DNA of 64,000 nucleotides. It comes from Verrucomicrobiota bacterium. GTDB taxonomy: Bacteria; Verrucomicrobiota; Verrucomicrobiia; Opitutales; Opitutaceae. The notes under the pieces were generated by a model. The model was not told the origin of the DNA, searched no databases, and worked only from the letters and a program-made list of their open reading frames with translations. The stretch covers positions 1-64,000 of the forward strand of contig JANYJB010000068.1 of assembly GCA_025361935.1 (NCBI GenBank), read 5' to 3'. Below, one piece after another: positions 15,016-49,853 of the stretch. The stretch's first letter is position 1. Each line of letters starts with the position of its first letter. The translations under genes and the position numbers were made by a program.

Positions 15016-15048
15016 GGTTATCAGTGGTTCTGAACCGAATTTACCAGC

Positions 15049-15095
15049 AAGGGGTGGACATCCGATGTCAGCCCCCATGCGATAACGTAGCGATC
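15049..15095 (+). promoter_or_regulatory. Shared 46-bp promoter/operator block, copy A
   Basis: aggggtggacatccgatgtcagcccccatgcgataacgtagcgatc directly before ATG. Confidence 0.6.
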
Positions 15096-17824: not shown

Positions 17825-19123
17825 ATGCCCCACTCCTACACCGAAGACCAACTCAAGGAGCACGCCGCCATTGGGTTGTTCGCGGAGCTTTTGACTGCGG
17901 TAAAACCAGCGTTGGCGGCCGCCGACAACGAATGGCGAGATGTCGCGGTTAAGAAAGCGCCCGGCTTTCGCGCACTGTCTCTGCTCGGTCCTGATGAAAA
18001 TGGTTTGTCAGACATCATCGCCGAGCTGCTTGACCCGAGTGCAACGCATGGGCAGGGCGAGACTTTCCTTAACCTTTTTGCATCGCGCTGCGGCGCGGTC
18101 GGCAAGCACCCGAAAGACCGTGTGACCATTCATCGTGAGTCATGCACCATCTTCATCGCAAACCAACGGCGGCGGATGGATATCTTGATTGACGGCAGGA
18201 AGTGGGGAATCGGCATTGAAAACAAGCCGTGGGCGGGCGAGCAGAAAGACCAGTTGCAGGATTACGCTAATGATTTGGAAATGCGCTTTGGCGAAAACTT
18301 CCTGCTCATTCGTCTCATCGGGTGGGATGTAGGTGCCACGAGCATGGATTCAAAACGGCAGGCGCAGCTCTCGGCACAGGGCAAATTCGCATCGTGGACG
18401 TATGCCCAACTACGCGACTGGGTGGACGAATGCCAGAAACACTGCCAAGCCCCGCGGGTCACCGCTTTCCTCGATGAATTATCCCTCTACTTCACAGCGG
18501 AATTTTTAACCGCCACTAACCTTCGCGCAGATATGGAACGAAAACACTTACTCCCGGCGCTGGAATCCATTCTGAAGAAAGACCCCGGCCTGCTCCAATC
18601 CGCCGCCGCCATTGCCGAGGTTTTCCCGAAGCTGCGACAGGAGTTCGTCAATCGGCTTTTCAAAGAAGTTGCGGAGGATGTTAAGAATGACCTTGGCCAA
18701 GCGGCAGATTGGCATGTGCATGGGATCGACGGTAATAACTTTGTGGAAACAGATAATGCTGCATTTGCGTTCTCACACCAGGATTGGCGTGAATTGTATT
18801 GGGTCCAGTTGGAGTCGCAGCCAAAAGTAGGCCGCGTCGTCCTCGGTATTTGGCATCACGATGGAATCAAGCGAGATACAAACGTTCATAGAGTTTTAAA
18901 GCAATTCGGTTGGGGAACGATTCCTGGCGGATCGAATTGGGATGCCCACGGGCCATTGCCCGAACCTTTCACGGATTGGACGACGAGCGCGGGTATTGCG
19001 GCAGTGGTTAATCAGCGTGCAGAACTCAAGAAATTGCTGACCGAGGAGTTCGTGAAACTTTGCAGCCATTTTAAGACCCCGCTGGCGAAGCTGGCGAAAG
19101 CTGCCGAGCTAAAACGTAGGTGA
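17825..19123 (+). CDS. PD-(D/E)XK nuclease superfamily protein (PDDEXK_4-like)
   Basis: ENGLSDIIAELLDP...RRMDILIDGRKWGIGIENKPWAGEQKDQLQDY. Confidence 0.82.
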   Translation: MPHSYTEDQLKEHAAIGLFAELLTAVKPALAAADNEWRDVAVKKAPGFRALSLLGPDENGLSDIIAELLDPSATHGQGETFLNLFASRCGAVGKHPKDRVTIHRESCTIFIANQRRRMDILIDGRKWGIGIENKPWAGEQKDQLQDYANDLEMRFGENFLLIRLIGWDVGATSMDSKRQAQLSAQGKFASWTYAQLRDWVDECQKHCQAPRVTAFLDELSLYFTAEFLTATNLRADMERKHLLPALESILKKDPGLLQSAAAIAEVFPKLRQEFVNRLFKEVAEDVKNDLGQAADWHVHGIDGNNFVETDNAAFAFSHQDWRELYWVQLESQPKVGRVVLGIWHHDGIKRDTNVHRVLKQFGWGTIPGGSNWDAHGPLPEPFTDWTTSAGIAAVVNQRAELKKLLTEEFVKLCSHFKTPLAKLAKAAELKRR

Positions 19124-21450: not shown

Positions 21451-23265
21451 ATGTCCACTCCAACTCAAATACAAGGCGGCACTATCGCACTCAGGTCTGT
21501 CCGCGAACTCCTCAGCGAGAACGGAAAACCTGCGCGATATTGGATTCCGTCCTACCAGCGTGGCTATCGCTGGACCCGCGTCCAAGTTGCCCAGTTACTG
21601 GACGACATCTGGGACTTCATCGAGGCGCCTGGCGCGCAAGATCGATTCTACTGCTTGCAGCCGATCGTTGTCAAAAGGCACTCCGATGGAAGAATCGAGG
21701 TCGTGGATGGGCAGCAGAGACTAACCACGATTCACATCATCCTTCTTTGTCTGAGGGATATCGCCAAGCTTCTCACCAAGACCTTTTTCGAGCTAAAGTT
21801 TGAGACCCGGAATGATCCCGCGCGTCCTTCGCTCGACTCGATCGACCTGTCGAAGGCGCTGGATAATCCCGACTATTTTCACGCCTGCGAGGCCTATGAG
21901 GCGGTCCAGGAGTGGTGCGGTTCGGGCAGTCACGATGAGTCTCATCAGCTGAAATTGATCCAGCACCTGCTTAACGCCGATACGGCCGGTCCGAACGTGC
22001 GCGTCATCTGGTTCGAGCTGGGACTGAATGACAACGTGGTGGATGCCTTTACCCGCCTAAACGTCGGCAAGATTCGCCTCACCGACGACGAGCTGATCCG
22101 AGCCCTTTTTCTCGGCAACGGCCACGGCGCAACCCCCGAGGAGGCGGCCATCAAGGCCCAGATAGCCTACGAATGGGACCTAATCGAGAAGGGCCTTCAA
22201 GCACCGGACTTCTGGGCCTTTCTCACCGAGGACAAGCGGGAACAAAACCGCATCGGCCACCTCTTCGAGTTGATGGCCCAGGCGGAGGACATCCCGGTCG
22301 AGGACCATCATGACGAGTATTGGGTCTTCCATGTTTTTAGCGATCGGCTCCGGAGAAGCACGCTCGAGAAAGAGTGGCTGCGCATAAAACAAGAGTTCAT
22401 GCGCTTCCAAGAGTGGTTCGAGGACGAGCGGCGCATCGCCTATCACATCATCGGCTTTCTCGTCACCCAGTCGGTCGAGATGTCCGAGATTCGCCGCCTC
22501 TCCGAGCAATGCACCAAGAGCGAATTCCACCGCCGCCTGCGTGACCGGGTCTATCAATGGCTTAATGGGAAAGAATGCGTCCCTGCCGAGGAAGAACTCC
22601 GCGCCGACATCGCCACCTATCTCGACGCCTTGGAATATGGGACCGACAAACAAAAGAAGCGCATCCGCGCCATCCTCCTCCTTTTCAACATCGCCTCTCT
22701 TATCGAGAACCGCCGCTCCAACCTGAAGTTCAACTTCACCGCATTCAAAGACCGAGATTGCGGCTGGGATTTGGAGCACATTCGCTCCCTCGCGTCCGAT
22801 AGAATCAACAACCGACCCGAATGGCTGGAGAGCTGCCATCGTTTTCTTATTGAGCAACCCGACCCGCATTGGAAGTCGCTGGCCGAGGAGGTCTCGGCCC
22901 AGATCGCTCTGGGAGACGACGCGTCCACGGATAAGTTCAAAAGCCTGCGGCTCTCCATCCTCAAGCAACTTGGCGAGGACTCCCAGCCCGAGGAGCGCAA
23001 CGACATCTCCAACCTGACGCTGCTCGATAGCGGCACCAATCGAGGCTACAAAAACGCACCCTTCGCGGTGAAGAGGCGGACCATCCTCGCGGTGGACAAA
23101 GCGGGCGTTTTTGTCCCTCTCTGCACCCGCAACGTCTTCCTCAAGGCCTACAGCGCGCACGTCGGCAGCGCCATCGTCTGGTCCGACCCAGACGCCGACG
23201 ACTACGAGAAAGCCATCGTCAACACCCTCGTCGGCTTCTTCCTCGGCAAGGAGGTCGAAACATGA
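21451..23265 (+). CDS. DUF262 + HNH-type (DUF1524-like) protein, GmrSD-like
   Basis: IPSYQRGYRW, VVDGQQRLTT; C-terminal WDLEHIRSLAS...NLTLLDSGTNRGYKNAPFAVKRRTI. Confidence 0.85.
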   Translation: MSTPTQIQGGTIALRSVRELLSENGKPARYWIPSYQRGYRWTRVQVAQLLDDIWDFIEAPGAQDRFYCLQPIVVKRHSDGRIEVVDGQQRLTTIHIILLCLRDIAKLLTKTFFELKFETRNDPARPSLDSIDLSKALDNPDYFHACEAYEAVQEWCGSGSHDESHQLKLIQHLLNADTAGPNVRVIWFELGLNDNVVDAFTRLNVGKIRLTDDELIRALFLGNGHGATPEEAAIKAQIAYEWDLIEKGLQAPDFWAFLTEDKREQNRIGHLFELMAQAEDIPVEDHHDEYWVFHVFSDRLRRSTLEKEWLRIKQEFMRFQEWFEDERRIAYHIIGFLVTQSVEMSEIRRLSEQCTKSEFHRRLRDRVYQWLNGKECVPAEEELRADIATYLDALEYGTDKQKKRIRAILLLFNIASLIENRRSNLKFNFTAFKDRDCGWDLEHIRSLASDRINNRPEWLESCHRFLIEQPDPHWKSLAEEVSAQIALGDDASTDKFKSLRLSILKQLGEDSQPEERNDISNLTLLDSGTNRGYKNAPFAVKRRTILAVDKAGVFVPLCTRNVFLKAYSAHVGSAIVWSDPDADDYEKAIVNTLVGFFLGKEVET

Positions 23266-25667
23266 TCACTACCCCTCACCCCATCACCTACCTGGAGCTA
23301 CTTTCGCGGCACCAGCGCATCCGTATTCCCCGTCTCCAGCGCGACTACGCCCAAGGGCGCAAGGGCTCCAAGGAGACCGATGTTCGTAACACGTTCTTGG
23401 ATGTGCTGCATAAGGCTCTTGAGCGCGCGGGCGAGGCCGCCTTCACCCCGCTCAATCTCGACTTCGTTTACGGCAGCCGGGAGCAGTCGCCCACAGAGCA
23501 CTTCTCTCCGCTCGATGGCCAGCAGCGCCTCACCACGCTATTTCTCCTTCACTGGCTGCTCGCTTGGCGCGATGGCGACGAGAGCTGGCAACACTTCACC
23601 GAGACCTTCTGCGAACCCGACGGGCGTTCCCGATTCTCCTACGACGTCCGCACCAGCTCGCGGGAATTCTTCGATGCCTTGGTCGCCCACCGTCCGCCGC
23701 CGTCCGGTGAAGCCGGCGCGGATTTCGATCTGAAGGCATGGATCACCGACCAGCCCTGGTATTTCCAATACTGGCGCCTCGATCCAACCGTCCAAGGCGT
23801 GCTGGAGATGCTCCAGGCGATGCATCGGCACGCGCTCTTTCAGCTCCGCCCCGGCCTGCTCTACCGGCAGCTCACCGCTACGGATCGCCCGGTCATCACC
23901 TTCCAACTCCTCGACCTCGGGCAGTTCCCGCTCTCGGATGATCTCTACATCAAGATGAACGCCCGCGGGAAGCCGCTAACGTTCTTCGAGACCTTCAAGG
24001 CCCGCTACGAGGCCAAGCTTTCGGACCACTTCCCGCCCACGGAACGGCGCGAGATTGGCGACGCATCTTTCACGATGCGCGACTTTATAGCGCGGCGGCT
24101 CGACACCGCCTGGACCGATCTACTCTGGGTCTACCATAGCGACGGTAGCTCGCGCGTGCCGCAGCGCGTGGACGATGCGTTCATGAACATCTTCCGCATG
24201 GTCGCCTTGGCCACGCGCGATCCCGTCCAAGATCCGCTCTTCTACACCCCGCAGATCGAGGCCCTTCGGTCGGAGGAAGATTCTCCGACCTACTCGGCGT
24301 TCGAGTCCCACGGATGGCTCGACCCCGAATTCTCGGCGGTGGTCGTCAGCCTCCTGGAGAGTTGGTGCGAGGCCAAGGGATTCTCCCTCTCCGCCGGCGG
24401 CCCCTTCGATGAAGCCGCCCTTCTCGGTCCGCTCCTCCAGGAGTCTGCCCAGCTCACGGTGCCGCAGGTAGTCCTCTTCTGCGGCTACGCCCTCTTCGTC
24501 CGGAAGCACGAGGGCAAGTTCCAGCCTTCGGAACTCGGGGAATGGATGCGCATCGTCCACAACCTCGGCTACAACTCCGATATCGACCGCATCGAGCGAC
24601 TGCAAAGTGCACTGGGTGCGCTGCGCGATCTCCTGTCCCATGCCCGCACCATCCTGACCCACGTGGCCGAGGTGGGCCGACGCGCCGGCATCGCCATGTT
24701 CTATGCCGACCAGCAGCGCGAAGAGGCGCTCAAGGCCGGCCTCCTGCTCGCCGATCCTGACGGCTGGCGCCCGCTGATCGACCAAGCCGAGCGCCACGGC
24801 TATTTCCGCGGCCAGATCGGCTTCCTCCTTAAGTTCGCCGGTGTAACGGCGGAATGGGAGAGCACCGGCGGCTGTGCCTGGTCCGCCGCCACCCATGCCC
24901 AGCTCCAAGCCTCGTTCCGCTCATACTATGCAAAGGCGGAGATGATGTTCGACTCCAAGGGACTCATCGACCTCGGGAAGAATGAGGATCGTTCGACCAG
25001 CGCCCTGCTCAGTGTGGGCGACTTCCTCTTGCCCAACGGCAACTCCAACCACTCCTTCCTAGTAAACGACGCCAGCAAGCCCTTCAGCTGGAAACGCTTC
25101 CTCCGCGACGACACCCCGCAGCGCGCGCTGCTCCAGCGGCTATGGGATCACCCGGCCTACACGACGCCCCCTGCGGCAGGTCTCGATGCCATCATCCAAT
25201 CGGCGAGTGGCATGGAGCCTTGGCGCGAGGCGCTGGTGCGAAACGTGGAGGCCATCCGCTACTGCAAGGACCGCAACATCCAGCACTCCGAAGACAATCA
25301 CGTCATTCTCCTGATGCGTAAGAAGCGCAGCGCGCCGCACGCCGAGCTTTTCACGTTCCTCCTGCACCCCCGTTTGCAACCCCCGGCGCTCTTTACCAAG
25401 GGCGAATACTTCGAACGCGACGCGCCGCATATCCCGCTCAGCTTTCCTTGGAAGGGCGCGCAACGTGGTCTCAATATCTATGGCCGCGACGGCGGCTTTG
25501 AGCTGTGGATCAACGTGCAAAATCTACCCGATCTTGAGACTGTGCTTGAACAGCGTGGCGGTTTCGTCGCCCAAGACGCGCATGCCGCTAACCTGATGCG
25601 GCCAGTCTCGCCAGCCGATCTTGATCGCACTCTACTCGAAATTGCTAACCTCCTTGCCGCTTCGTGA
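23262..25667 (+). CDS. Large DUF262-domain protein, second gene of the pair
   Basis: IRIPRLQRDYAQGR...PLDGQQRLTTLFLLHWLL; 4-nt overlap with upstream gene. Confidence 0.82.
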   Translation: MITTPHPITYLELLSRHQRIRIPRLQRDYAQGRKGSKETDVRNTFLDVLHKALERAGEAAFTPLNLDFVYGSREQSPTEHFSPLDGQQRLTTLFLLHWLLAWRDGDESWQHFTETFCEPDGRSRFSYDVRTSSREFFDALVAHRPPPSGEAGADFDLKAWITDQPWYFQYWRLDPTVQGVLEMLQAMHRHALFQLRPGLLYRQLTATDRPVITFQLLDLGQFPLSDDLYIKMNARGKPLTFFETFKARYEAKLSDHFPPTERREIGDASFTMRDFIARRLDTAWTDLLWVYHSDGSSRVPQRVDDAFMNIFRMVALATRDPVQDPLFYTPQIEALRSEEDSPTYSAFESHGWLDPEFSAVVVSLLESWCEAKGFSLSAGGPFDEAALLGPLLQESAQLTVPQVVLFCGYALFVRKHEGKFQPSELGEWMRIVHNLGYNSDIDRIERLQSALGALRDLLSHARTILTHVAEVGRRAGIAMFYADQQREEALKAGLLLADPDGWRPLIDQAERHGYFRGQIGFLLKFAGVTAEWESTGGCAWSAATHAQLQASFRSYYAKAEMMFDSKGLIDLGKNEDRSTSALLSVGDFLLPNGNSNHSFLVNDASKPFSWKRFLRDDTPQRALLQRLWDHPAYTTPPAAGLDAIIQSASGMEPWREALVRNVEAIRYCKDRNIQHSEDNHVILLMRKKRSAPHAELFTFLLHPRLQPPALFTKGEYFERDAPHIPLSFPWKGAQRGLNIYGRDGGFELWINVQNLPDLETVLEQRGGFVAQDAHAANLMRPVSPADLDRTLLEIANLLAAS

Positions 25668-25817: not shown

Positions 25818-26960
25818 CTATCTTGGTTGGGCCGGGGGACTGATCTTGGCCCAAGCCTGCTCGAACACCGGCTCTTGGAAATCTGGTGATCCTTGGCGGG
25901 AAATCCATGCCCCAATACGTGCGACAATATCTTTGGTGAAAGGATCGGTGACCTGCCCTATACGGTGGTAGTCCGCGAGGCGTGCAGCCGGCAAGTTTTG
26001 TAACTGCCAGAAATCGAGGATACCCCCTGGATATGTCGCCGACGGAGGTAACAAGTGATACCTAGTATTTGTCTTGTTCACAATTTCTTTCAACTGGGTC
26101 CGGTCTATCAGGCTGGCTGCGGTGAGGGGGACGATGCGGACCATTTGATAAAACAAGGGCGGTTTTGCCGCTCGTGGAGGTGCCCCAAGTGCCGGTGGCG
26201 TGAGAGAGCGCGTGATTTTGTCGACATCACATGCCGGCGTCACGAGAAAGAAATGATCGCCATGTCCACCGCCGGCGACTGGCGCCGCCAAGAGGTCACC
26301 GGTCCCGACTCTCGTGCCAACTGCGGGAACGATATACATCTCCTCGTTAAGATAAGGATCCCAGTTTTCGCAGTTCCCGTCCCGCTGTAAGATTGCGAGC
26401 ACATGGAAAACTGTGTGTCGCAGAATCCGACGGCGCACCTCATCGTCGGCCATCCCTTGATCGAGTCGTTCTAAGATCGGTCCGAGATGATCCCAGAAGA
26501 CAGTTGAGAGAACTCGGTTAAACTGTCCGCCGGGCTGGAATACCTGAAGGACCTGAGTGCGATCCACCCGAAGAAAAAACTCGAATACGACGTTCCCGTC
26601 TCCGCCTTTATTGAAATACCTGAACAACGTGGACGGCTTCTCGGTCAACGTGCGAAGTTCAGGAGCAAGCTCGCCGCTGAATGAGGTTACAATAGCGACT
26701 GGCATCAGATAGTGCGAATGTATCTCCTTTGCGACCGCATTGCCCTCTGCCTCACCGGCATCCGCTGTCAGCCTTAGATCAAGAATTGCTCCATCGTAAC
26801 GCGATTGCTTTAGGCGCGATAGCGCCTCGGATTTTGTCTTAACCACATCAAGTTCAACTCTGCACACGCCTCGACGCTCATAATCGCGAACCGGGGACCG
26901 GTAGTTGCTTTCAATATAATCGTCTTGGTCCTCTAGGACGAGCAGCTTGAGGTTAGGCAT
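25818..26960 (-). CDS. Receiver-domain (REC) protein with uncharacterised C-terminal region
   Basis: LVLEDQDD, GAILDLRLT, AIVTSFSG, RYFNKGG. Confidence 0.8.
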   Translation of the reverse strand: MPNLKLLVLEDQDDYIESNYRSPVRDYERRGVCRVELDVVKTKSEALSRLKQSRYDGAILDLRLTADAGEAEGNAVAKEIHSHYLMPVAIVTSFSGELAPELRTLTEKPSTLFRYFNKGGDGNVVFEFFLRVDRTQVLQVFQPGGQFNRVLSTVFWDHLGPILERLDQGMADDEVRRRILRHTVFHVLAILQRDGNCENWDPYLNEEMYIVPAVGTRVGTGDLLAAPVAGGGHGDHFFLVTPACDVDKITRSLTPPALGAPPRAAKPPLFYQMVRIVPLTAASLIDRTQLKEIVNKTNTRYHLLPPSATYPGGILDFWQLQNLPAARLADYHRIGQVTDPFTKDIVARIGAWISRQGSPDFQEPVFEQAWAKISPPAQPR

Positions 26961-29574
26961 TTTGAGGTGTCGGTGAAAAATCTAGGCTGAAATAAGCGCC
27001 AACCGGGGCATGAATCGCCTTTAGCGAAAACCCGTTTCTCGTCGCGGCCTCTCCGGCAATGGGCAAACCGAGGCCAATACCGCCTCGCAACGAGAAATGT
27101 GGTTCGAATATGTTCTCGGTCGCGATGTGCTCACGGGGTATACCGGGGCCATTGTCCGTGATTTGGAGACGGCTCAGATTGCTCGCCTCTTCGACTTCGA
27201 GATGGAACCTGATAGTCGGATCCACCACCAGCGGATGAGTAATCCAGTAGACTGAGTTCTCCACCAAGTTGTAGAAAATCGCTTTGAGATCTGTCTCCCA
27301 TGCGGTGACCTCGAACCCTTCGGGAATGTCGATGACCACGGTGATGCCGTTTGCCTTTATTTGTTCCTCGAAAGCGCCAAGCACTTGGCTGATCGCGGTG
27401 CGGAGCCTCATGGGAGCCTTTTTTGCCCGCGAACGGACCCCGAGCGGCTGGATGCGGTCGAAGAGGGCAGATACTAGCACCAAAGCGCTACGCACGCTAT
27501 CCATCGCGCGTAGCACCTCGTCCATAAGAATCGGACTCGGCCCCTGACGCAGCTCGTCAAGCAACTCGGGAATCCGCCGACTCTGGGTCCGAAGGATACC
27601 GATGGCCCTATTACCTTCGTGCAGCACAATGCCCACGACTTTGCCGAGTGTCGCCTGCCCCTGATAGATTGCGATGGTCTCCTCTAGTTTGGCGACGATC
27701 TCCTCTCGTGCCTTCTGTTCCTCGCGCAACAGGATTTCCACTTCATCGATCTTGCCCGGCGCCACTCCCTCGTTTTTCAGGAACGAGGTGATCTTGGTTA
27801 CCGGCCGCTCGTAGTCCCGCAACTCCGCAAGGAGTTCGCCTACCCGTGGAGCACGGTTGATGCGCCCGACGGCGCGCCTGATCGAGAAGCGTCGCTCCTG
27901 CAGGTCGCCAACGATGGCCTTCACTATCGCCTTCAGTCGCTCGTAGTGTTCGTCTTCTCTCAGGCCGTCGCGTGCACTTTTTTCTTCAAGATGCGACTCA
28001 GCCTCCGGAGCGATGGAGACCACGCCGAATGTCTGATTGTTACTGATGGCGAAGGTCGGATTGTTGATGCGGTCCCGGTCGAGGCCCATCCAGTCGTCAC
28101 CTTGGTCACCGTAGGGGCGTATCCGGAAATCACCGCGAAACACCATGATACCGCAGCTTTCGTCCAACATGCGCTTGAGCTGCGCTCGGGTGGTGTCACC
28201 CAACAGGTCTCCACGTGATTTAGATCGACCAATAAGCTCATGCAGCGAGGCGGTTTCCCTGTCTATGACCCTGAGATCCAACCGAATTGGACCGCATGGG
28301 GCTCCGGGCAAATCGGTGAGCACTAGATCCAACGGTTGTTCGGGGCGACCAACGACCAGCGGCGACTGAAAAAACCCCACCAAATGGCCGGCGCTGTCGA
28401 TGTCTGCAGCGATGCGATAATCGAACTGGTCCATCACTGGCAACGGCTCTATCTCCTCGGGTCCGTCCGGCTGTCCGGTTGAGTCGAATCCCTCAGTAAC
28501 AAGAAGAACTTGGAAATCCTCGGCGTTCCGCGCGTTGAGGGGGAACAGCATTCGCTGGAGGTCCAAGCGTAGTTTTCCGAAGTCGTCCCGGTTCCAATCC
28601 CGGTAGACTTCGTCGCCCTTCCGCACTGTCATTTCAAAAAGCGTTCCGTGCCTAGGGGGGCCGACGATCTGTCGCTTCTCCACAAGAATCCTAACCTCGT
28701 CAAGAAACCGAGCGGTCCGAAAATCGGACGCCTGCAAAAGAAGCGATGTCTCGGTGTTACTCGATGTGGTTGCGGTCCGCAGAAAGATTTCCTCGCCGAG
28801 CACAAACGCCGCGAACCGTCCGATGCCCTTGTTGCCCTGCATAGGGCGTCCTTCTGGGCTGTGGCGCCGGGTGAGCTTGTCAGGAGTTGCCGGCACCAGC
28901 CACGTGCCGGTGACTTGTTCATAGGTCATCCCATGACCATCGTCCTCCACCATGATCCGAATGCTTGCCGCTGAGTCGCGAACCACGCTCTTGAATGTGA
29001 TTATGACCGTGTGCGCATCGGCATCATAGGCGTTCTTTACCAGCTCAATCACAGCAGCCTGCGCATCCTTGATGAGATTCTGCCCGATGGTGTGGATGAG
29101 CCGAGCTGCGGGTCGGATACCATGGAAATTTTGCTCCGGAGCGGACGCCGGCGTCTCGGGGGCCGTGCTGGAAAGGCTGAGCCATTGCTGATGATCCAAT
29201 GGGGACGGTTTTGCATCGCTGGCCTTCTCGGACCTAATGAGCATTCCCGCCGGTGTCTTTTGCAGAACCACCGCATCTCCCGCCCGCAGTCCGTTGACTG
29301 CAAAAAAAGCCGTGAGCCCGGTGAGACGGTATTCATTACGAGTCCCGCCGAAGAACTCGTTGTTATAATAAATGAAGTTGAGAGACCATGGGCGGCCATC
29401 GGGGTCGGTGGCCAAGATTTCCGCGCGTGGATTCTTCTCCTCCGCCTTCAGCGGGGGGAAGAAGGCAAGGTCCGTTCTAGGAACCAGCAGCCCCGCCACG
29501 TGCGCCCCCGTTTCCCCGGTATCATTCAGGCTAAGCACTTTCCGGAAAACGCTGATCAGATCCATGTTCCTCAT
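26953..29574 (-). CDS. EcoRII-N-like domain + Hsp90/GHKL ATPase + C-terminal histidine-kinase-like ATPase
   Basis: KVLSLNDTGETGAHVAGLLVPR...FIYYNNEFFGGTRNEYRLTGLT; IELVKNAYDADA/VEDDGHGMT; VVGIVLHEGNRAIG; NLVENSVYWI/ITDNGPGIP/GGIGLGLPIA. Confidence 0.8.
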   Translation of the reverse strand: MRNMDLISVFRKVLSLNDTGETGAHVAGLLVPRTDLAFFPPLKAEEKNPRAEILATDPDGRPWSLNFIYYNNEFFGGTRNEYRLTGLTAFFAVNGLRAGDAVVLQKTPAGMLIRSEKASDAKPSPLDHQQWLSLSSTAPETPASAPEQNFHGIRPAARLIHTIGQNLIKDAQAAVIELVKNAYDADAHTVIITFKSVVRDSAASIRIMVEDDGHGMTYEQVTGTWLVPATPDKLTRRHSPEGRPMQGNKGIGRFAAFVLGEEIFLRTATTSSNTETSLLLQASDFRTARFLDEVRILVEKRQIVGPPRHGTLFEMTVRKGDEVYRDWNRDDFGKLRLDLQRMLFPLNARNAEDFQVLLVTEGFDSTGQPDGPEEIEPLPVMDQFDYRIAADIDSAGHLVGFFQSPLVVGRPEQPLDLVLTDLPGAPCGPIRLDLRVIDRETASLHELIGRSKSRGDLLGDTTRAQLKRMLDESCGIMVFRGDFRIRPYGDQGDDWMGLDRDRINNPTFAISNNQTFGVVSIAPEAESHLEEKSARDGLREDEHYERLKAIVKAIVGDLQERRFSIRRAVGRINRAPRVGELLAELRDYERPVTKITSFLKNEGVAPGKIDEVEILLREEQKAREEIVAKLEETIAIYQGQATLGKVVGIVLHEGNRAIGILRTQSRRIPELLDELRQGPSPILMDEVLRAMDSVRSALVLVSALFDRIQPLGVRSRAKKAPMRLRTAISQVLGAFEEQIKANGITVVIDIPEGFEVTAWETDLKAIFYNLVENSVYWITHPLVVDPTIRFHLEVEEASNLSRLQITDNGPGIPREHIATENIFEPHFSLRGGIGLGLPIAGEAATRNGFSLKAIHAPVGAYFSLDFSPTPQNA

Positions 29575-29817: not shown

Positions 29818-30075
29818 CTAGAATTCGGCACGCGCTTGCGGGGCTTTAAAATGTTTAGGACAGCCGTGCCAGAAACAACCGTCGACAAACACGGCAACCT
29901 TCTCGCGTGGGAATATGAAATCTGGCCGACCAACCATGGCTGGGTGTCGGCGCCACCCAGAGATCCGGGCCGCACGCAGCAACCGGGCCTGCAATATTTC
30001 TGTCGATTCGTTGCGACGGCCGCGTATGCGTGCCATCAGGGCCGAGCGCTGCAGCGCTGTCATGATGTCGGCCAT
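29818..30075 (-). pseudogene. vsr: Very short patch repair endonuclease (Vsr), interrupted by in-frame TAG at a conserved Trp position
   Basis: LMARIRGRRNESTEI...GRPDFIFPREKVAVFVDGCFWHGCPKHFKAPQARAEF*RDKIAGNKRRDARVNVALGKLGWRVIRIWEHSL. Confidence 0.75.
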
Positions 30076-30087
30076 CAGATTGACCTG

Positions 30088-31575
30088 CTAACCAAGAATC
30101 GACGCGACGATCGAGCCGATTTGCTTGGCCAAGTAGGGAGGAACCGCGTTCCCGACCTGATGATACTGCTCTGTAACTGGCCCCTCGAAGTAGTAGTTGT
30201 CGGGGAATGTCTGCAAACGCGCAGCTTCCCGGACGCTAAGACTCCGGCACTGCGAAGAGTCGTAATGGATGTAGTAGTGACCGTCCTTGGAGATATGGGA
30301 GGTAATCGTGGTTGAAGGCCTTCCGCCGAGTTGGACGCGGAATCGGTCGGCGAACGGAGCACCGTCAAGACCCGCGTTGGCGTGATTCGGACGCAGAAAA
30401 TGAGGTGCGTCACGCAACGTGGGTGACCGTTCGTAGTGCCGGCCATATTCGGCCCAGAAGAAATAGCGGACCAGATCACGGCGCATATGCCCCCGACTGT
30501 TGTGGTTCAAGACCACTGGCAGCAGGGGATCGGAATACCAATTGGCGTGAACTACGGGTGCAGCCGTCGCCTCCAGAACTTGGCCGCCTAGAGAAAGATT
30601 ATCCGAAAGGGACTCCGCCCGTTTTTTGAGTGCCTTTGCAAAATCAGGTTCTAAGTTATTGAACGCGTAGCCGGTAATATCGTTGATGGCTTGCCGCCAA
30701 GAAGTGGCGGAGTCTGCCTCCTTCGACATGCGACTCCGAATTCTTGGCAGATCCGAAATCGCAGTCGCGGCCGAAACCAGCGCGGTGCGATCAGCAACCA
30801 TGCGTTGGGGGCGCTTCTTGATGTCGTTTCTCACCCCGAATATAAACAGGCGGTTTCGGGACTGCGGGACTCCATGCTCCTCCGCATGCAGCACAAATTC
30901 GCGTTTATTCTCAAATATAAGGCCTTGGGCTGCCTCGTCTCCTAATCCGTGCAATTCGTATCCAGCCTCACGCAATCCCTTACAGATCATATCGAACATC
31001 CCATTGCCTTGCCACTTTGCTGACAACAGGCCGGGAACATTCTCCATGACGAAAACCGCCGGCTTGAAACGACGGACTACCTTCAGGTATTCGAGATATA
31101 ATCGGTGCCTAGGATCCGCCTCAAAATCCACCAGCGCTTCACGCGACCTACGAGCGCGTCCCACTAGGGAGTAGGCTTGGCACGGAGGGCCGCCGATCAA
31201 TACGCACTCACGAGTGCCCATCCTAGACAGGGCGGCCGATACGCGATTTTCGACCTCATGACTTGTGGACGGCTTACCCAACTCAGCCAAAAGAGCCTCC
31301 GAGGCTGCGACCTTAGCTGCGGCACCCATCTCGGAGAAGAGTTTTTCGCGAGTGATCGCACCCGAGATATACTCGATATACCGGCGTTTCGATTTGTCTG
31401 AATCAAGATGCCGAAACAGAGCCCGCAGCTCAAGAGTTTGGTGCGCCCAGTGGTCCCGTTCAACGGAAAGAACGGTCTCGAAGATACGGTTTCCTTGCGA
31501 GTCCCGGACATGGCTGAAACCTTCGTTCAGGCCGCCTGGTCCGGCGAAAAGGTCAATTAGCGGGATCGGGGTCAA
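30088..31575 (-). CDS. dcm: DNA (cytosine-5-)-methyltransferase
   Basis: IDLFAGPGGLNEGF; GGPPCQAYSLVGRARR; FVMENVPG; QVGNAVPP. Confidence 0.95.
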   Translation of the reverse strand: MTPIPLIDLFAGPGGLNEGFSHVRDSQGNRIFETVLSVERDHWAHQTLELRALFRHLDSDKSKRRYIEYISGAITREKLFSEMGAAAKVAASEALLAELGKPSTSHEVENRVSAALSRMGTRECVLIGGPPCQAYSLVGRARRSREALVDFEADPRHRLYLEYLKVVRRFKPAVFVMENVPGLLSAKWQGNGMFDMICKGLREAGYELHGLGDEAAQGLIFENKREFVLHAEEHGVPQSRNRLFIFGVRNDIKKRPQRMVADRTALVSAATAISDLPRIRSRMSKEADSATSWRQAINDITGYAFNNLEPDFAKALKKRAESLSDNLSLGGQVLEATAAPVVHANWYSDPLLPVVLNHNSRGHMRRDLVRYFFWAEYGRHYERSPTLRDAPHFLRPNHANAGLDGAPFADRFRVQLGGRPSTTITSHISKDGHYYIHYDSSQCRSLSVREAARLQTFPDNYYFEGPVTEQYHQVGNAVPPYLAKQIGSIVASILG

Positions 31576-31729: not shown

Positions 31730-33820
31730 TCATGCCTGTTCACCCGCGAGCACTCTCAGATCATCCTCGTTCAAGACCGAACGAAGAGCTGAAAGATTGG
31801 AATATCGCGACAACGCCTTACGGAGGATTTTTGCCTGCTTTTCACTCGGCGACTTGCCAGCTGGAATGAGCCGGTTCGCCATAGTCTCCGCGACGCCGAC
31901 CCAGACGGGGTTGGCGTCGCCGCGCCGCGCCGCGTCCGCCACGCGCAACCATTGGTCGGCCGACAGCTTGAAGAAAACTCGGATGAGGTCCGCTTCCGCT
32001 TTCGGCCGCGCCATGTCTTTTATCGAAAACTGGTCCCAATCGGCTGCCGGGTTCAAATCGAGTTCGATTCCACGGGCGAGAACGGTCTCGCGGCACTCGT
32101 TCCGCTTGGCCCATTCCGTAACGTTACGCGGACCGGCCGATTGCCGGATGGCCAGATCGCAGGCAGGTATGGCGACACGCAGCACTTGGTCGATTTCGAG
32201 TGTCACCGCCTGCCCGGTCCAGATTTTCCGCCAAGGGAGTCGCTTCGCCGTCCGCACCGAAATCAGCATGATGGCATACGCCACGAGGTTCGCCCGGTAT
32301 CCGACGATCCCGAGTTCGCCGCAGATACGCTCGCCCTGTCGCTGCACGAGCGCGAGGCAGCATATCCGACGGAAGTCCTCTTCGCCCGGCAACTGGCTTC
32401 CTTCAGTGTTGGTGGAGGTCGCGCCCAGCACCGCCATTAGGCGGGCGAAACATTTTTGGCGGCCCAGACTCACCGAGTGGGCCTCCTGCTCCCAACTTAA
32501 AAGATAACGCGCAAGATCGGTCTTGTCGAATTTCGTGCGCGATGGATGGCGGTTCCGGAACGCCAGTTTCTGCGGCCCGGTTGTGTGCTTCGCCAAGTCG
32601 TCCGCATACTGGCCACGGACCCGCTCGTAATACCAACGGATAGGCCGCCCAGCTGAATCCTCATCGCGTTCGGCCTCGACCACGCGCGAGTGCCGCTCCA
32701 GCTCAATGTGCCACGGGTTGTTTGCGAAAAAATCTGCGTCTTGGATACGATTCTGCGTGTTTGCGAAGCGCGAGATTTTCGGCACCAGCTCGTCGATGAG
32801 TTCCTCCGGAACCACGGTGAGCTTCATCGCGACACCGATGGAGGACACATCCACCTTATCCTCACGGACGCAACGGGCGATGGAGGCGGTCGTCTGGCCC
32901 CCGTTCACAATTTGAAAATCTTCGGCGGCGAGCAGATGATAGGTTCCATCTGGCGTTTTCCGGAGCCGCACCTTCGAGGCCGTCACCGAAATGCCATTGT
33001 TGAATGAGAGGAAATATTCCGGCTTCGAGTGAATCGTTTCTCGAATGCCCTTGTTAACCTTCCCGGTGAACTGCAAGAACGCGCGAACGTTGCGTTCCAG
33101 CAGGCGCATCCGGTGCTCATTGTAGAGCGTCGCCAGGAAATTTCCCGGCACCTTGGTGAGCAGCACGCCGACCCGCCCGTTTTGGATCTCAGCGGCCTCC
33201 CGGTCCGAAACTAGGCATGGCAATCCGCCGATGGGCTCGAAATCCGCCACCAGCTGTTCGCGTCCGCTCTCTCGGGTCCGGACCAGTCGATCCGCATCCC
33301 AAACAGCGGTCCGGATCGCCGTTTCGGCGGCGGAGCCCGCTGCCACATTCGAGACCCGTCCTGTCGTCAGCACGCAACAGACCACTCGGCCTTGGTCCGC
33401 CCGATAATCGGTCTTCAGTGATTTAACCAATTCGCGCGCCGGGTCGGAATCTTCGAGTTCCACCTCCGTTCCGTTTGCAAGCGCTTCCACTGCTGCGAGC
33501 ATTTCCTTCACCGCCTGATCCAATTGTTTTTTCGGACAGGTTACTTCTGGCCAGCTCCGGTCCAGCTCCAGATCGGCATGCGCATCGACCACCGCGAACA
33601 CGGTCATGATACTGTCCTCTTCATCAATATCGTATCCATCGAGGGAACACAGCTGGCGACCCGATTTGAATCTGACTGGCGTCCATTGTGGATTCGTGAG
33701 GAATCCCGCTTCAGCGACGATGCCTGCCAGTGTGCGGAAAACCGCTTCGCTCCGGTGCAGGCCGCCATCGGCCCCAATGGCGTATTCGTGGATTTCTTGT
33801 CGGATAGGTTCGATGCTCAC
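31730..33820 (-). CDS. AIPR (abortive phage infection) family protein
   Basis: NVRAFLQFTGKVNKGIRETIHSKPEYFLSFNNGISVTAS...IVNGGQTTASI. Confidence 0.88.
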   Translation of the reverse strand: MSIEPIRQEIHEYAIGADGGLHRSEAVFRTLAGIVAEAGFLTNPQWTPVRFKSGRQLCSLDGYDIDEEDSIMTVFAVVDAHADLELDRSWPEVTCPKKQLDQAVKEMLAAVEALANGTEVELEDSDPARELVKSLKTDYRADQGRVVCCVLTTGRVSNVAAGSAAETAIRTAVWDADRLVRTRESGREQLVADFEPIGGLPCLVSDREAAEIQNGRVGVLLTKVPGNFLATLYNEHRMRLLERNVRAFLQFTGKVNKGIRETIHSKPEYFLSFNNGISVTASKVRLRKTPDGTYHLLAAEDFQIVNGGQTTASIARCVREDKVDVSSIGVAMKLTVVPEELIDELVPKISRFANTQNRIQDADFFANNPWHIELERHSRVVEAERDEDSAGRPIRWYYERVRGQYADDLAKHTTGPQKLAFRNRHPSRTKFDKTDLARYLLSWEQEAHSVSLGRQKCFARLMAVLGATSTNTEGSQLPGEEDFRRICCLALVQRQGERICGELGIVGYRANLVAYAIMLISVRTAKRLPWRKIWTGQAVTLEIDQVLRVAIPACDLAIRQSAGPRNVTEWAKRNECRETVLARGIELDLNPAADWDQFSIKDMARPKAEADLIRVFFKLSADQWLRVADAARRGDANPVWVGVAETMANRLIPAGKSPSEKQAKILRKALSRYSNLSALRSVLNEDDLRVLAGEQA

Positions 33821-34791
33821 GGGGGGGAAAGATGGCGGTTGGACGAACGGAACGGTTCGAGCGCGCCCAACTCGATCGCATAGCGCAATTCGGCGACCCC
33901 ACCCGGAATCGACCGGATGTCCACATGAGGAAACCCTTCGCGAACATCATAAACATCCAGACCGAGCACCAACATGCGGTCGCGGTATTCGTCCGCTTGC
34001 GTCTCAAGGTAACCGTATTCGGCCAGCAGTTCTTCGAAGCGTTGCTCTTGCATTGTCGACATGCGCGCCCGCAATAGGGCGACGCTTTCGCGGAGGGTGC
34101 GCCCGGCCGGCCCGCCCACTGAAATCTGCACTGCCGTAAGATGCAGCGGACGGTGCGGATCGACTCCGATCTGGCTCGGCTGGGAAATATGCACGCGAGC
34201 ACCGGATTCCACTCGCCATGTTTTCACCTCGACCAATCCCTCGGTAAACCGGAAATCGTGCAGTTCGCGGGCAGGCCCCTGCCACGACTCAAGCGCGGCA
34301 TCAACGCCATCGACCGCCATCACAAGTGAAAGCACATGCAGTTCGCCGAAAAGACCGCGCACTTCCTCGTCGGTCATAAACCCCGAGCGTTTCTGGAGAA
34401 ACCGACGCCAGAGTGAAATTCGCCGAAGCACGCGTTCGACAGCGGGCATATTCTCATCTGGCCGCTCGACCACAGACACTAGGTCGGCGCCCATCATGGC
34501 GAAGAGGTCGGCCACTGCGGGATCGCCGAGCAGGATTGGAAGCCCCAGCGTCTCCGCTCCGACCTTCACCGGACGTTCGAACGAGAAGCCGCGTCCAGAG
34601 TCGGGGCGCGGCAAGCGTGGCAAGTCCGCAGCAGCAAAGCGGACCATTAGGCCTTGGCGGCGGTCGTGTGCACGCAGGATGGCCCCGATCGGCAGGCTAC
34701 CACCGTGCATCTGGAGATACAGGTAAGGCCCGCCGGATTCCGGCTGCCGGCTGATTTGGGCCCATGCGCCTACGAGGTCTTGCGGACTCAT
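33817..34791 (-). CDS. PD-(D/E)XK motif protein (DUF4420-like)
   Basis: GLFGELHVLSLVM...FRFTEGLVEVKTWRV; 4-nt overlaps on both sides. Confidence 0.8.
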   Translation of the reverse strand: MSPQDLVGAWAQISRQPESGGPYLYLQMHGGSLPIGAILRAHDRRQGLMVRFAAADLPRLPRPDSGRGFSFERPVKVGAETLGLPILLGDPAVADLFAMMGADLVSVVERPDENMPAVERVLRRISLWRRFLQKRSGFMTDEEVRGLFGELHVLSLVMAVDGVDAALESWQGPARELHDFRFTEGLVEVKTWRVESGARVHISQPSQIGVDPHRPLHLTAVQISVGGPAGRTLRESVALLRARMSTMQEQRFEELLAEYGYLETQADEYRDRMLVLGLDVYDVREGFPHVDIRSIPGGVAELRYAIELGALEPFRSSNRHLSPP

Positions 34792-37628
34792 GTGGACTCA
34801 CCCCTAGCCTTGGCCTCCGCCCGGATTTTTTCTTCCTGTTCCTCCTGTTCGTCGCGTTCGATATCCTCCGCGAATTGCTCGCCGAAGAGTTCCACCAGCA
34901 TCCTCGGGTTACAGACATAGTCTTGTCCGAGATCGTGCTCGGAACTTGGAAAGCTGATGGCCACGCCGATGAGGGGTTCTGTCGCCTGCTCTGCTTTGGC
35001 GACCGGAACAATCGGATAAAGTAGGAGTAGGCCTCGCTCCGCCGGTCGATTCATCCGGTAAAACGGGGCGCGCTTCACGTCGCCGAGCAGTTTCGCATCG
35101 GCGACCGCTTTCCGGTATTCCTCCGGGCTAAGATCGATCGCTTCATCTTGGCCCACGGCCACGCCCCGGAATCCGAACTGGTCGGGCCGGCGCGCAGCCT
35201 TGTTCTGGTCGAGATTCCGGCTTACCGTTCGATAGTCACGGCCCGCAATGGCCGGCATTTCAGAATCCCGGCTACCGATCATCGCCACGGTCCAAGTGTC
35301 TAGTTCACCCTCGCGATTCATCGACTCGATGAACTTGGCAACCATGCTAGATCCGTCTGTCGTGCCGTCGAAACAGACGTTGGACGTCGCCCGGAATCGC
35401 CGCAGAAAATCCAGCACCGTTGTGCTATCCACTTTTCCCCAACGGTGATGGTAGGACCCCTTCTCACCGCTCGCCATGAGATTGCTGCCAGCGGCTTTCC
35501 CGTGCACCGCTTCCATGCGGTCGATCAGCGTGGTGAAGGCCCGATAATTTTCCGCCGCTGCCGAGCGGGCAATGTCGAGCGACGAAGCGAGGCTCTCGGC
35601 AAAGTGAACCCGCACCGTTTCCCCGCGACGCATTTTGTTCATCGCTGTCACCAGCATGTCCACGCGTGGCTCGCGCACGCGCAACCCGTATTCCGTTGGT
35701 CGTTTGTTGAGAAAGCACATGCGGCTGAACTCCCGACGGAGTTCCTCGGTTGCGAGGGCGATTCGGCGGAAATTCCCGACCGTCACTCGCGGCGCATAAA
35801 CTCGGCAGAGATGGGCGTAACCAGGTCGGTATCCGAACCACCGGCCCATCTGCATCAGCGTGTCGAACGCACGGGCACCGCGAAGGAAATAACTTATGCT
35901 GAGACCAGAAAGCGTAAGGCCCCGGCTGAGGCGGTCGCCTCCGACCGCAACCACCACTAACCCGTCGGGCTTGCCGGCATAGTCGAGATTTTCCTTCGTG
36001 CTGCTATTAATGCTTTGAAAGGTCATCCGGTCGAACGCCGCGAGCACTTGCGCACGCACTTCCGCCCAGCTGGGCAGCACCGGCTTCACGAGCTGCTGGG
36101 ACGGATGGGTCTCGAATTTGGGGAAATCCTTCACGAAAATCTTTTCCCAGATTGCCTGCAAGGCTGCCCATTCCTTTTCCTCCCCAGTTCCGTGACGCAG
36201 TCGCTCGACCAGTGAAGAAATCTCGTTCTCGACGTGTTTCGTAACCTTCTCTTGAACATCCGTGAAACGGCTGACGTGCACCAGCATCGACATGTGTTCC
36301 TTGGCATGTCCGAGCGCAATTCGCGCCGCGACAGTCAGAAGGAAAGCGCGCAGCGCCTCCTTGAGGGAATCAGGTAGATCCGGCAGGACCACCTGACTGC
36401 GCTTGTGCCGCGGGGGCAGCCATGCATCGGCATCCTCAGCGGGCTGATGCATCGGCAAGGGAGCCATTCCGGAGATGTTCAGACTCTCGTCCGCTTCCCG
36501 ACCAAAGACCTCTTCGGGTCCAATATAGTTGGTGGGACTCTTGAGACTCGTGATAAATGATTTCGGGAAAATGTCCGAACCGCGGCTGTCGAGATTCCGG
36601 TCGAGCCGCTTTTCGACCGGTTCGGGATCCATGAAAATGTTAGCATAGGGCGTGGCGGTGTAGCCCACGAAACCGACGCGATCGCAGCGCCATAGTATCT
36701 GCCGGATGAGACGGTTGATCGTGGTCGGATTGGTCTCGGGATCGGTGTCTGCGGTATTGATTGACGAATGGTCGGCCTCGTCGTCGATCACCAAGGTGGG
36801 CACCGTGAGGGACGCTTGGTTGTTCGCCTTCTTCACCCAGTCCAAGAGGTTCTTCAGGATCGAGGCATTCTTCTTCACCACCAAAATGACGGGGGCTTGC
36901 CCCGGTGTAACATGGAGGTGCGAGTTCACGATTGCGCCGTAGTCGCCCGCAACAGACGTGAGAGTGATGATGTCCGGCAGCGGCACCGCCGGGTCACCAG
37001 GCACACGAACCCGAGCAATGCGGCGGTTCGACCACGACCGGATTCCGAAATGCGCGAAGTTGTTGCGGCTGTCCTTTCCGATCAGAACCTCCTCAACTCG
37101 CTCCTGCGTCTGTTGGCGCAGGTTCTCGTGAATGCCGGAAAGGATGATGATTACCTTGTAGCCGGCATCCAACGCTTTCGCGACCAGCGCGGTGTAGTGC
37201 TGCGTTTTGCCCGACTGGACGTGACCAACCACGAGGCCGCGCCGGTCCCAAATACCCTCACGCTTGGGATCGCCCAGCAAGTCGATCACCTCCGTGGTGC
37301 TCTCCTCCAACTCCTTCATCACCTGCAGGGGACGCCTGACCTCAGCAGCCAGATAGGACTTTAGCCAAGGCCAGTGCACCCAGTCGCGGCCCGTTTCGGG
37401 CGTCATCCACCGTTCGATCTCTTCATTATCGACCATCGTTTCCGCCCGCCCAACCGAAACGACGATGTTCGTGAGAGCTTCGTCGATTAGGGAGCGGCGT
37501 TCCGGCTTGAGATGCGGAGCGTGCACCAGCATCTCGTCGATCTGTGCCTCAACGATTTCGGGGGTCGGCACGCCGTCGGCAGCAATCGAGGCCAGAGCGA
37601 CATTGAGAAAGGCTTGTCGGGAGAGCAT
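34788..37628 (-). CDS. Z1-domain superfamily 2-like ATPase
   Basis: GLVVGHVQSGKTQHYTALVAKA; TLVIDDEADHSSIN. Confidence 0.88.
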   Translation of the reverse strand: MLSRQAFLNVALASIAADGVPTPEIVEAQIDEMLVHAPHLKPERRSLIDEALTNIVVSVGRAETMVDNEEIERWMTPETGRDWVHWPWLKSYLAAEVRRPLQVMKELEESTTEVIDLLGDPKREGIWDRRGLVVGHVQSGKTQHYTALVAKALDAGYKVIIILSGIHENLRQQTQERVEEVLIGKDSRNNFAHFGIRSWSNRRIARVRVPGDPAVPLPDIITLTSVAGDYGAIVNSHLHVTPGQAPVILVVKKNASILKNLLDWVKKANNQASLTVPTLVIDDEADHSSINTADTDPETNPTTINRLIRQILWRCDRVGFVGYTATPYANIFMDPEPVEKRLDRNLDSRGSDIFPKSFITSLKSPTNYIGPEEVFGREADESLNISGMAPLPMHQPAEDADAWLPPRHKRSQVVLPDLPDSLKEALRAFLLTVAARIALGHAKEHMSMLVHVSRFTDVQEKVTKHVENEISSLVERLRHGTGEEKEWAALQAIWEKIFVKDFPKFETHPSQQLVKPVLPSWAEVRAQVLAAFDRMTFQSINSSTKENLDYAGKPDGLVVVAVGGDRLSRGLTLSGLSISYFLRGARAFDTLMQMGRWFGYRPGYAHLCRVYAPRVTVGNFRRIALATEELRREFSRMCFLNKRPTEYGLRVREPRVDMLVTAMNKMRRGETVRVHFAESLASSLDIARSAAAENYRAFTTLIDRMEAVHGKAAGSNLMASGEKGSYHHRWGKVDSTTVLDFLRRFRATSNVCFDGTTDGSSMVAKFIESMNREGELDTWTVAMIGSRDSEMPAIAGRDYRTVSRNLDQNKAARRPDQFGFRGVAVGQDEAIDLSPEEYRKAVADAKLLGDVKRAPFYRMNRPAERGLLLLYPIVPVAKAEQATEPLIGVAISFPSSEHDLGQDYVCNPRMLVELFGEQFAEDIERDEQEEQEEKIRAEAKARGEST

Positions 37629-37630
37629 GG

Positions 37631-39187
37631 TCAGGAAAGGTGCTGGCGGATCTGCTCCGCGTGGTAAATGAACGGTTCCGCAGTCAAAACAATGCGCTCG
37701 GCTTCAGTCGCGCTATGGCCATGCCCACGCATGGTCTTGATGGCCTTGCGGGCGAACACCGCCATTCCTTCAATTTCCTCAGAGGACGGCTCGTTCACAG
37801 CACCATTGGTGGTCCGTTTCGGGTCTTGAAGAATCGCCTCCAAAGGCAGGAGCCTCTCGAATGCGCGGAGAAAATCCTCCGCCACGGTGGAATCTTTGAC
37901 CGACTGCTTAAGCGTTTGGACAACAGGATGCGCCCGGTTGATGCGGAACCGGATTGAATCCGGGGTGGGAACTTGGTTCCAGAAAGCCTGCCCGACGGGA
38001 TCGTCGTGGGTGCCGGCCGTCGGGGCCTGCCGGTCCCCGCGGAAATTGAACACCGCCATCGCATGACGTCGGGTCGCTTCCGCAATACGCTGAAGATCGG
38101 CTAGCTGCCAAGAGGGCAGCACGACACTCGACTTCATCACGTTTAGGCCCCACCCGGCATCGAGCGCGTTGGGCAGATCGATCCGGATGCGCGCGAGTCG
38201 ACAGTTGTCCTCAGCGGGGAACAGTCGCAGCCAGCCCCCCGGCACGATCAGCCGTTTCGCCCGATAAACCAAAAAACCCTGATGCGCACCCCACCCGAGG
38301 GGGCCGGCCATCCGTTCGTTCTGAGCTGTTGTGACTTTGGAATGGTGCGGCAGCACGTATGAAGCCGCTTCTATTTTGTCGCCGAGGATTTCAGTATCCT
38401 TAAGGACGCCACCCTCAAAGGGGTCCCATCCGGCAATGGCCGATGCCCCGAGCCGGATGGTCACGCCGGCGTTGATGAAACGGTGAAAGACCATGCCGAG
38501 ATGCCGGGAGATTTTCCGCGTCAATGCCGTTTCGTTTTTCTCTGCGTTCGCAATAAGTGACGAGCGGGTGACCAGCCGGTCGAGATGTGTCACGATCACC
38601 ATCGTGCCAGTGGACCTTTTGGACTGTGCCAGCGTCGATTGCGCAAGAAGTGGCACCGCTTCCTGGTCGGGGCCGTCAAGCATACGCCATCCGGCGGTTG
38701 CAACATGATCTAGATCCCAGCGTAACACCGTCAGGGGGCCGCCGATCCCAGCCCGACTCGCGACCGTGAGTTTCCGACCCATTGAAATTGACGCGGTCTT
38801 CATGCCGAGGCCGAACCGACCAAGATCATCGGGACGCCGCACCCGCCCCGGACCATCGCCACCCCAGCGCATGGCCTCCTCCAGTTTCGTGGCCGACATG
38901 CCTTTGCCATCGTCCTCGACCGTTACGTAACCGCCAATTGCAGTCGACCGTGGTGGGGACACTTGAATTGTCACATTGCGCGCTTCTGCCGTTATACTGT
39001 TATCCACCAGATCGGCGAGGGCGGTGGGTGGCGTATACCCAATGTTCCGCAGCCCTTCGACCAGCGCGAACGGATGCGGTGGATTCTCCCTTCCTTTGTC
39101 CTGTTCGTCGGAAGCCGGTGCGTTTTTGGGAGAGCGCTTTCCATTCGCTGCCGAACTCATGACGACCTGCGACTCCCTTGCTCGCAA
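37631..39187 (-). CDS. Hsp90/MORC-like GHKL ATPase
   Basis: ALADLVDNSITAEA; VEDDGKGMS; DDLGRFGLGMKTASISMG. Confidence 0.85.
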   Translation of the reverse strand: MRARESQVVMSSAANGKRSPKNAPASDEQDKGRENPPHPFALVEGLRNIGYTPPTALADLVDNSITAEARNVTIQVSPPRSTAIGGYVTVEDDGKGMSATKLEEAMRWGGDGPGRVRRPDDLGRFGLGMKTASISMGRKLTVASRAGIGGPLTVLRWDLDHVATAGWRMLDGPDQEAVPLLAQSTLAQSKRSTGTMVIVTHLDRLVTRSSLIANAEKNETALTRKISRHLGMVFHRFINAGVTIRLGASAIAGWDPFEGGVLKDTEILGDKIEAASYVLPHHSKVTTAQNERMAGPLGWGAHQGFLVYRAKRLIVPGGWLRLFPAEDNCRLARIRIDLPNALDAGWGLNVMKSSVVLPSWQLADLQRIAEATRRHAMAVFNFRGDRQAPTAGTHDDPVGQAFWNQVPTPDSIRFRINRAHPVVQTLKQSVKDSTVAEDFLRAFERLLPLEAILQDPKRTTNGAVNEPSSEEIEGMAVFARKAIKTMRGHGHSATEAERIVLTAEPFIYHAEQIRQHLS

Positions 39188-49500: not shown

Positions 49501-49529
49501 TGGTGGAGGTGCCGGGATTTGAACCCGGG
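49501..49529 (-). repeat. Attachment-site direct repeat within ssrA
   Basis: Identical to 6775-6803. Confidence 0.93.
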
Positions 49530-49853
49530 TCCCCATGGCCTTCGCACACCGCGTCTACCCTTATGTGCTGGTATTTATCTCGCCGGCGTAACGCGACCAA
49601 CCGCGCTTAGACGCCGACCAATCCCCGGGTTGAAGATACGACGCAAAGCCCGCGGATGGCTCCATGCGTTATTCCTGCTGTCGTCGTCCACGTTGGTTAG
49701 CAGGAGTCACCAGGCGGACGTCACTGCATTAAGCAGCGAGGGGCATTTCTTCAGTGTTGCCGTTTGTTTGTTTTGAAAGGGGTTTAACGAGAGACTTTCA
49801 CTCTCGAAGGGCAGCGGCGCACTCCAACCAAGGGTCGAATCCAGAACACCCCC
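49501..49853 (-). ncRNA. ssrA: Transfer-messenger RNA (tmRNA)
   Basis: 5' GGGGGTGTTCTGGATTCGAC..., 3' GGGTTCAAATCCCGGCACCTCCACCA; internal tag ORF ending PLAA-TAA. Confidence 0.93.

Follow-up and report, generated by a model that had tools for sequence, protein, structure and literature searches.

We analyzed a 64,000-nucleotide stretch of DNA (positions 1 to 64,000 of contig JANYJB010000068.1, GenBank assembly GCA_025361935.1, from an Opitutaceae member of Verrucomicrobiota; hereafter the window), in which a minus-strand gene (26953..29574) encodes a fusion kinase of 873 aa. According to Pfam, PDB sequence search, AlphaFold and Foldseek, the protein combines an EcoRII-N domain, a MORC-like GHKL-S5 module, a DHp helical hairpin and a HATPase_c domain in a single intact frame with its ATG at 29574, and it is followed by the gene of a 380-aa receiver (REC) protein (25818..26960, minus strand), the two genes overlapping by 8 nt. 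The open frame extends upstream of the ATG because a broken vsr gene shares the same frame; kinase residues are numbered here from codon 29559 (Leu of LISVFRK), and counting from the ATG adds 5. A preliminary description of this DNA had read the protein as an EcoRII-N/B3-like N-terminus followed by an Hsp90/MutL-type ATPase and a C-terminal kinase-type ATPase, and all of the motifs it quoted were found in this one minus-strand frame, with Pfam in agreement. Chance resemblance and assembly artefact were both rejected as explanations, since an unrelated metagenome-assembled genome (MAG) of Opitutales encodes an 868-aa orthologue (L025) with identical domain order and 54% identity to the window kinase; the domain fusion is real.

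The AlphaFold model of the kinase (mean per-residue confidence, pLDDT, of 84.6 from a 32-sequence alignment; alignments for structure models exclude rows from plasmid records) consists of a beta-rich domain (residues 1-116), a disordered or flexible linker (117-146), a GHKL plus S5-like module (about 148-530), the DHp hairpin (601-706) and then the catalytic (CA) domain. When the model was compared with PDB by Foldseek, HK853-RR468 complexes ranked first, and MORC2, MORC3, SMCHD1 and Hsp90 matched a longer N-terminal stretch.

The N-terminal domain (residues 1-116; 29212..29574, minus strand) matches Pfam EcoRII-N (PF09217; E=2.5e-12, residues 2-82, 47.3 bits as compared to a gathering cut-off of 25), and the Pfam B3 match (1.3e-4) is under its cut-off. 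Its best PDB sequence matches are the EcoRII-N structure 3hqf (E=2.5e-8), EcoRII 1na6 (1.5e-7) and the plant B3 protein VAL1 (3e-7), and residues 1-110 were modelled confidently (pLDDT 81-96), so that the proposed EcoRII-N/B3 identity holds by both domain models and structure prediction. Among stand-alone EcoRII-N proteins, the nearest to this domain are L006, L008, L020, L021 and L024 (55-58% identity, as compared to 42-47% for others), which, where their flanks are readable, are subunits in loci with a C5 cytosine DNA methyltransferase (DCM), Vsr, a DEAD helicase, a GHKL ATPase and an HNH nuclease. One Lys, one His, one Glu and one Arg are conserved across 19/19 aligned EcoRII-N domains, including the divergent N-domains of EcoRII-type restriction endonucleases. 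EcoRII residues K23, H36, E96 and R98 are said, from Golovenko's work of 2009, to contact DNA, and we take the four conserved columns to be these contact positions. None of the papers covered by a text search joins the terms EcoRII-N and GHKL.

The module that follows (residues 148-530 approximately; 27970..29118, minus strand) is a MORC/Hsp90-type GHKL and S5-like ATPase. Its Pfam match is HATPase_c_3 (1.5e-17, residues 167-281), and its GHKL motifs together with an S5 domain of MORC-like fold place it with the paraMORCs. For conservation we used relatives from loci picked by similarity to the window and from a GTDB scan that yielded at least 80 loci. Among the 88 relatives listed, E172, N176, D206, G208, G210, G245 and G247 are essentially invariant, and the DxGxG motif is thus conserved. 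In the DHp hairpin (residues 601-706; 27442..27759, minus strand), for which the top Foldseek matches are again HK853-RR468 complexes, a long helix (601-672) bears H647 and is followed by a second helix (676-706). H647 (27619..27621, minus strand; H652 from the ATG), the H-box His in the motif LHEGNRAI (clade consensus HEGR-P), is invariant (88/88), as the preliminary description had required; the next residue is E in 60 and D in 24 relatives, and the H-box reads HE in 27/27 sequences of the clade of the window. The protein thus has the feature expected of histidine kinases, a two-helix DHp whose phospho-acceptor His is conserved. The C-terminal HATPase_c catalytic domain (26956..27432, minus strand; Pfam 3.1e-16, residues 756-858) retains N, G1, F and G2 boxes, and both N764 and N768 are found in 88/88 relatives.

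The 380-aa REC protein, which had been proposed as the partner of the kinase, proved to be encoded by a cognate gene with receiver residues kept. Its model (pLDDT 89.3) contains a clear receiver domain, with REC folds as Foldseek matches, although the Pfam Response_reg match (16.9 bits) is under the cut-off of 30.2. Among 59 REC partners, the phospho-acceptor D61 (26778..26780, minus strand), E/D10, T/S92 and K/R118 are each conserved in 59/59 and D11 in 58/59, so the fold comes with the acidic pair, Asp, Thr/Ser and Lys of response regulators. As H647, the N-box, the first GHKL site and the REC residues are conserved, both ATPases and the phosphorelay chemistry look to be under selection. The beta-rich output domain (25896..26363, minus strand; motifs GD[IL]...LTPxCD...R-G-P) has an invariant P-x-C and a conserved R-x-G-x-P, in which P242, C244, D245, R355, G357 and P359 are invariant or nearly so. 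No convincing Pfam match (PF02452 and DNA-binding output domains included) and no PDB sequence match were found for it. In a Foldseek search of the REC protein against BFVD viral models, REC matches come first and are followed by PemK-like proteins along with an endoribonuclease (prob 0.97-0.99, E 0.004-0.05), and hhalign of the output domain against a PemK profile gave P=0.0026 and a score of 21.4 (40 column shuffles reached at most 11.9, and the reversed profile 11.6). These comparisons suggest a domain that may be remotely PemK/MazF-like, perhaps an SH3-like barrel of that type.

Gene context was counted over the 56 listed loci with at least 3 kb of flank on both sides. The REC gene is the immediate downstream neighbor of the kinase, in the same orientation, in 39/56; among listed loci of the clade of the window this holds for 22/22. 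DCM is found within 3 kb in 35/56 and Vsr within 3 kb in 25/56 (most kinases of the clade adjoin the same DCM type), Mza-type Z1/DUF4420/AIPR genes in 7/56, and an EcoRII-type restriction endonuclease within 10 kb in 5/56. No other conserved gene, nuclease included, stands out around the kinase-REC pairs in these loci, making the REC protein the candidate effector. Such two-component-like modules were found in bacteria of many phyla, in one archaeal MAG and on Campylobacter plasmids. By tblastn against plasmids, the double-ATPase protein without EcoRII-N was found in Enterobacter, Hymenobacter, Bacillus and 41 Campylobacter records; these relatives are mostly annotated as 'sensor histidine kinase' and are followed by a 'response regulator' or hypothetical gene, often with a DCM gene. 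Conjugative Campylobacter plasmids (L018 and similar records) carry the kinase-REC module, and a DCM gene adjoins it where the region was read. Two matches, unannotated, were seen among phage records. The double-ATPase and REC pair is thus a widespread kind and not unique to the window; the fused DNA reader on this known core is what is unusual.

EcoRII-N is found on the kinases of the window, L025, L083, L084 and, weakly, L046 (5 of the 88 relatives listed, a frequency that, given selection by similarity, is not a population estimate). L083 and L084 (Chitinophagaceae) have Pfam E-values of 7.5e-18 and 1.7e-17, and the Duganella sequence L046 is detected by our own profile (4e-8) and marginally by Pfam (0.005). 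A tree was built from the sequence outside this domain (a quick method, with branch support by SH-aLRT only); on it the EcoRII-N label requires three changes, forced by well-supported branches, and three separate acquisitions would therefore be the simplest reading. The fusions of L083 and L084 directly follow Vsr, DCM and EcoRII-type restriction endonuclease genes, and in L046 all three are found in the vicinity. In L025, a truncated N6-methyltransferase (HsdM-like) frame (L025:234-632) precedes the fusion kinase, as though the kinase gene had entered a Type I locus.

Upstream of the kinase, all on the minus strand, are an interrupted vsr gene (29818..30087; PF03852 4.1e-16 and alignment) and the DCM gene (30088..31575; PF00145 2.6e-48). 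An in-frame TAG takes the place of the conserved Trp in the F-W-RDKI motif of Vsr, with the remaining Vsr in the same frame and no stop up to the kinase frame; it may be a nonsense mutation, a sequencing error or a suppressed stop. Then come genes for an AIPR protein (MzaE-like; 31730..33820; PF10592 2.2e-79, NCBIfam MzaE 6e-87, under the equivalog cut-off), a DUF4420 PD-(D/E)XK protein (MzaD-like by profile matches; 33817..34791), a Z1 helicase-like protein (MzaC-like; 34788..37628; PF10593 2.9e-68, PADLOC MzaC 3e-149) and a single-GHKL ATPase (MzaB-like; 37631..39187; PADLOC MzaB 6e-75), so that MzaB-E-like genes stand directly upstream of the kinase-REC module. PADLOC assigned no known defence system to the kinase or REC. 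Two overlapping GmrSD/DUF262-type genes (21451-25667, plus strand), convergent with the REC gene, form a further restriction-type pair within this island, and further genes include a PDDEXK_4 nuclease (17825-19123, plus), a WYL regulator (15024-16133, plus) and a HipA-type gene (46333-47553, minus). This content suggests that the window holds a dense defence-like island. A tmRNA gene (49501-49853, minus strand; tag GNTEEMPLAA) is a usual integration site, and the defence genes may therefore lie on an adjoining island; Pfam recognised no integrase in the 447-aa frame beside it.

Several known systems resemble parts of this module. Sister HEF_HK (PF19191) and Response_reg_2 (PF19192) pairs have been described with the same neighbors (Bellieny-Rabelo 2021, PMC8011034). 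They share with the window HATPase_c_3, a DHp with an HE/HD box, HATPase_c, a soluble architecture, an adjacent REC-like gene, and C5 methyltransferase and Vsr neighbors; the window differs by the added EcoRII-N and by a REC C-terminal domain that may be PemK-like. By Pfam, the window kinase and REC fall outside these families, with no PF19191 or PF19192 match even at E<=10, and L107, which is above the HEF_HK cut-off, is homologous to the window kinase. Iyer 2008 (PMC2292703) places paraMORCs in restriction-modification systems; the window shares with these the GHKL-S5 module of MORC-like fold and DCM, Vsr, Z1 and nuclease neighbors, and differs in joining this module to a complete histidine kinase that has a REC partner. 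EcoRII, a Type IIE endonuclease, shares the EcoRII-N/B3 domain, its N-domains binding additional target sites and acting as allosteric effectors (PMC4081073), whereas the window protein lacks the EcoRII-C nuclease and has a kinase as output. The window has MzaB-, MzaC-, MzaD- and MzaE-like genes in common with the MZA defence system (MzaABCDE), but these are all under NCBIfam equivalog cut-offs, MzaA was not recognised among the window proteins scanned, and no MZA model matches either the kinase or REC. In the Detocs phage defence system a kinase also signals to a receiver-linked effector, with sensor and effector domains that, as far as is known, differ from those of the window; the likeness lies in this general idea.

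We put the chances at about even that the protein works as sensor kinase within a soluble two-component-like module, associated with a C5 methyltransferase in a restriction or defence island, and turns the reading of a DNA site into a phosphorylation signal. A DNA-gated kinase was considered because of the allosteric role of EcoRII N-domains. EcoRII-N would bind a specific DNA site, probably masked in host DNA by the neighboring methyltransferase; the MORC-like GHKL-S5 module would shut as an ATP-dependent dimer clamp and signal to the DHp-CA kinase that DNA is bound; the kinase would autophosphorylate H647 and pass the phosphate to D61 of REC; and phosphorylated REC would free its output domain to act on the invader or to halt the cell. 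Of this scheme, the order of the domains, the intact kinase and receiver residues, the conserved gene partnership and the repeated recruitment of EcoRII-N are observed, and we infer the sequence-specific DNA binding, the dependence on methylation, the clamp closure, the phosphotransfer and the nature of the output. The 'methylation sensor' reading of the preliminary description is plausible, since a C5 methyltransferase adjoins. The fully specified chain, with unmethylated sites in invading DNA sensed by EcoRII-N, relayed by the MORC-like clamp and converted by His-Asp phosphotransfer into activation of a PemK-like effector, is tentative and leans to the unlikely side.

Several observations weigh against such a DNA-gated phosphorelay. 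Most family members have no EcoRII-N, so for them the usual input would be another signal or come from the ATPase itself. EcoRII residues K92 and Y41, to which roles in that enzyme are assigned, are G and L in the window domain, and the target site need therefore not be CCWGG. In L083 (12662-14380) and L084 (12688-14464) the output differs: their fusion kinases are followed by a short REC-like protein and then an MBL-fold (ComEC-like) one (identities read from sequence; Pfam names neither), and the output may therefore vary from lineage to lineage. Support for the PemK-like reading is weak (hhalign probability of 11%), MazF catalytic residues are not evident in the output domain, and with Vsr broken the window locus may be decaying.

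These points leave room for other functions. The protein could be the motor and targeting subunit of a paraMORC-type restriction system, with EcoRII-N targeting, GHKL-S5 remodelling, nucleases such as the DUF4420 PD-(D/E)XK protein cutting, and the kinase only gating assembly while phosphotransfer to REC is minor or lost. The N-terminal GHKL is homologous to BbrUII/HgiDII restriction enzymes, Z1, DUF4420, AIPR and MzaB genes lie within the same gene run, EcoRII-N subunits elsewhere accompany single-GHKL ATPases, and paraMORCs are placed in restriction-modification systems (PMC2292703); however, the H, N, G1 and G2 boxes and the REC switch residues are constrained across phyla, and in many loci neither Mza genes nor a recognised nuclease accompany the kinase-REC pair, which makes us regard this function as unlikely. 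The rarity of EcoRII-N in the family would suit a purely structural or protein-binding role for it, with the kinase sensing something else (a nucleotide level or a phage protein), as in relatives without the domain; NTP sensing has been speculated for HEF_HK pairs (PMC8011034). Such a role is quite doubtful in view of the contact-type residues kept in every aligned domain and because EcoRII-N was acquired three times separately in a family associated with DCM/Vsr loci. The two-component anatomy and the tight DCM linkage would also fit control of gene expression, the pair regulating methyltransferase or defence genes upon unmethylated sites like a restriction-modification control protein, but the REC protein has no DNA-binding output domain recognisable by Pfam and instead a beta-rich one with its own conserved motifs, and we consider this improbable.

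A phosphorelay gated by EcoRII-N would matter beyond the window, as kinases with a fused DNA-reading effector domain of known structure allow a concrete guess at the input signal of the widespread paraMORC two-component-like modules. If this reading is true, the methylation status of DNA would serve as input to a phosphorelay, restriction would here take a form other than cutting, and methylation-based self/non-self discrimination would drive signalling rather than cleavage.

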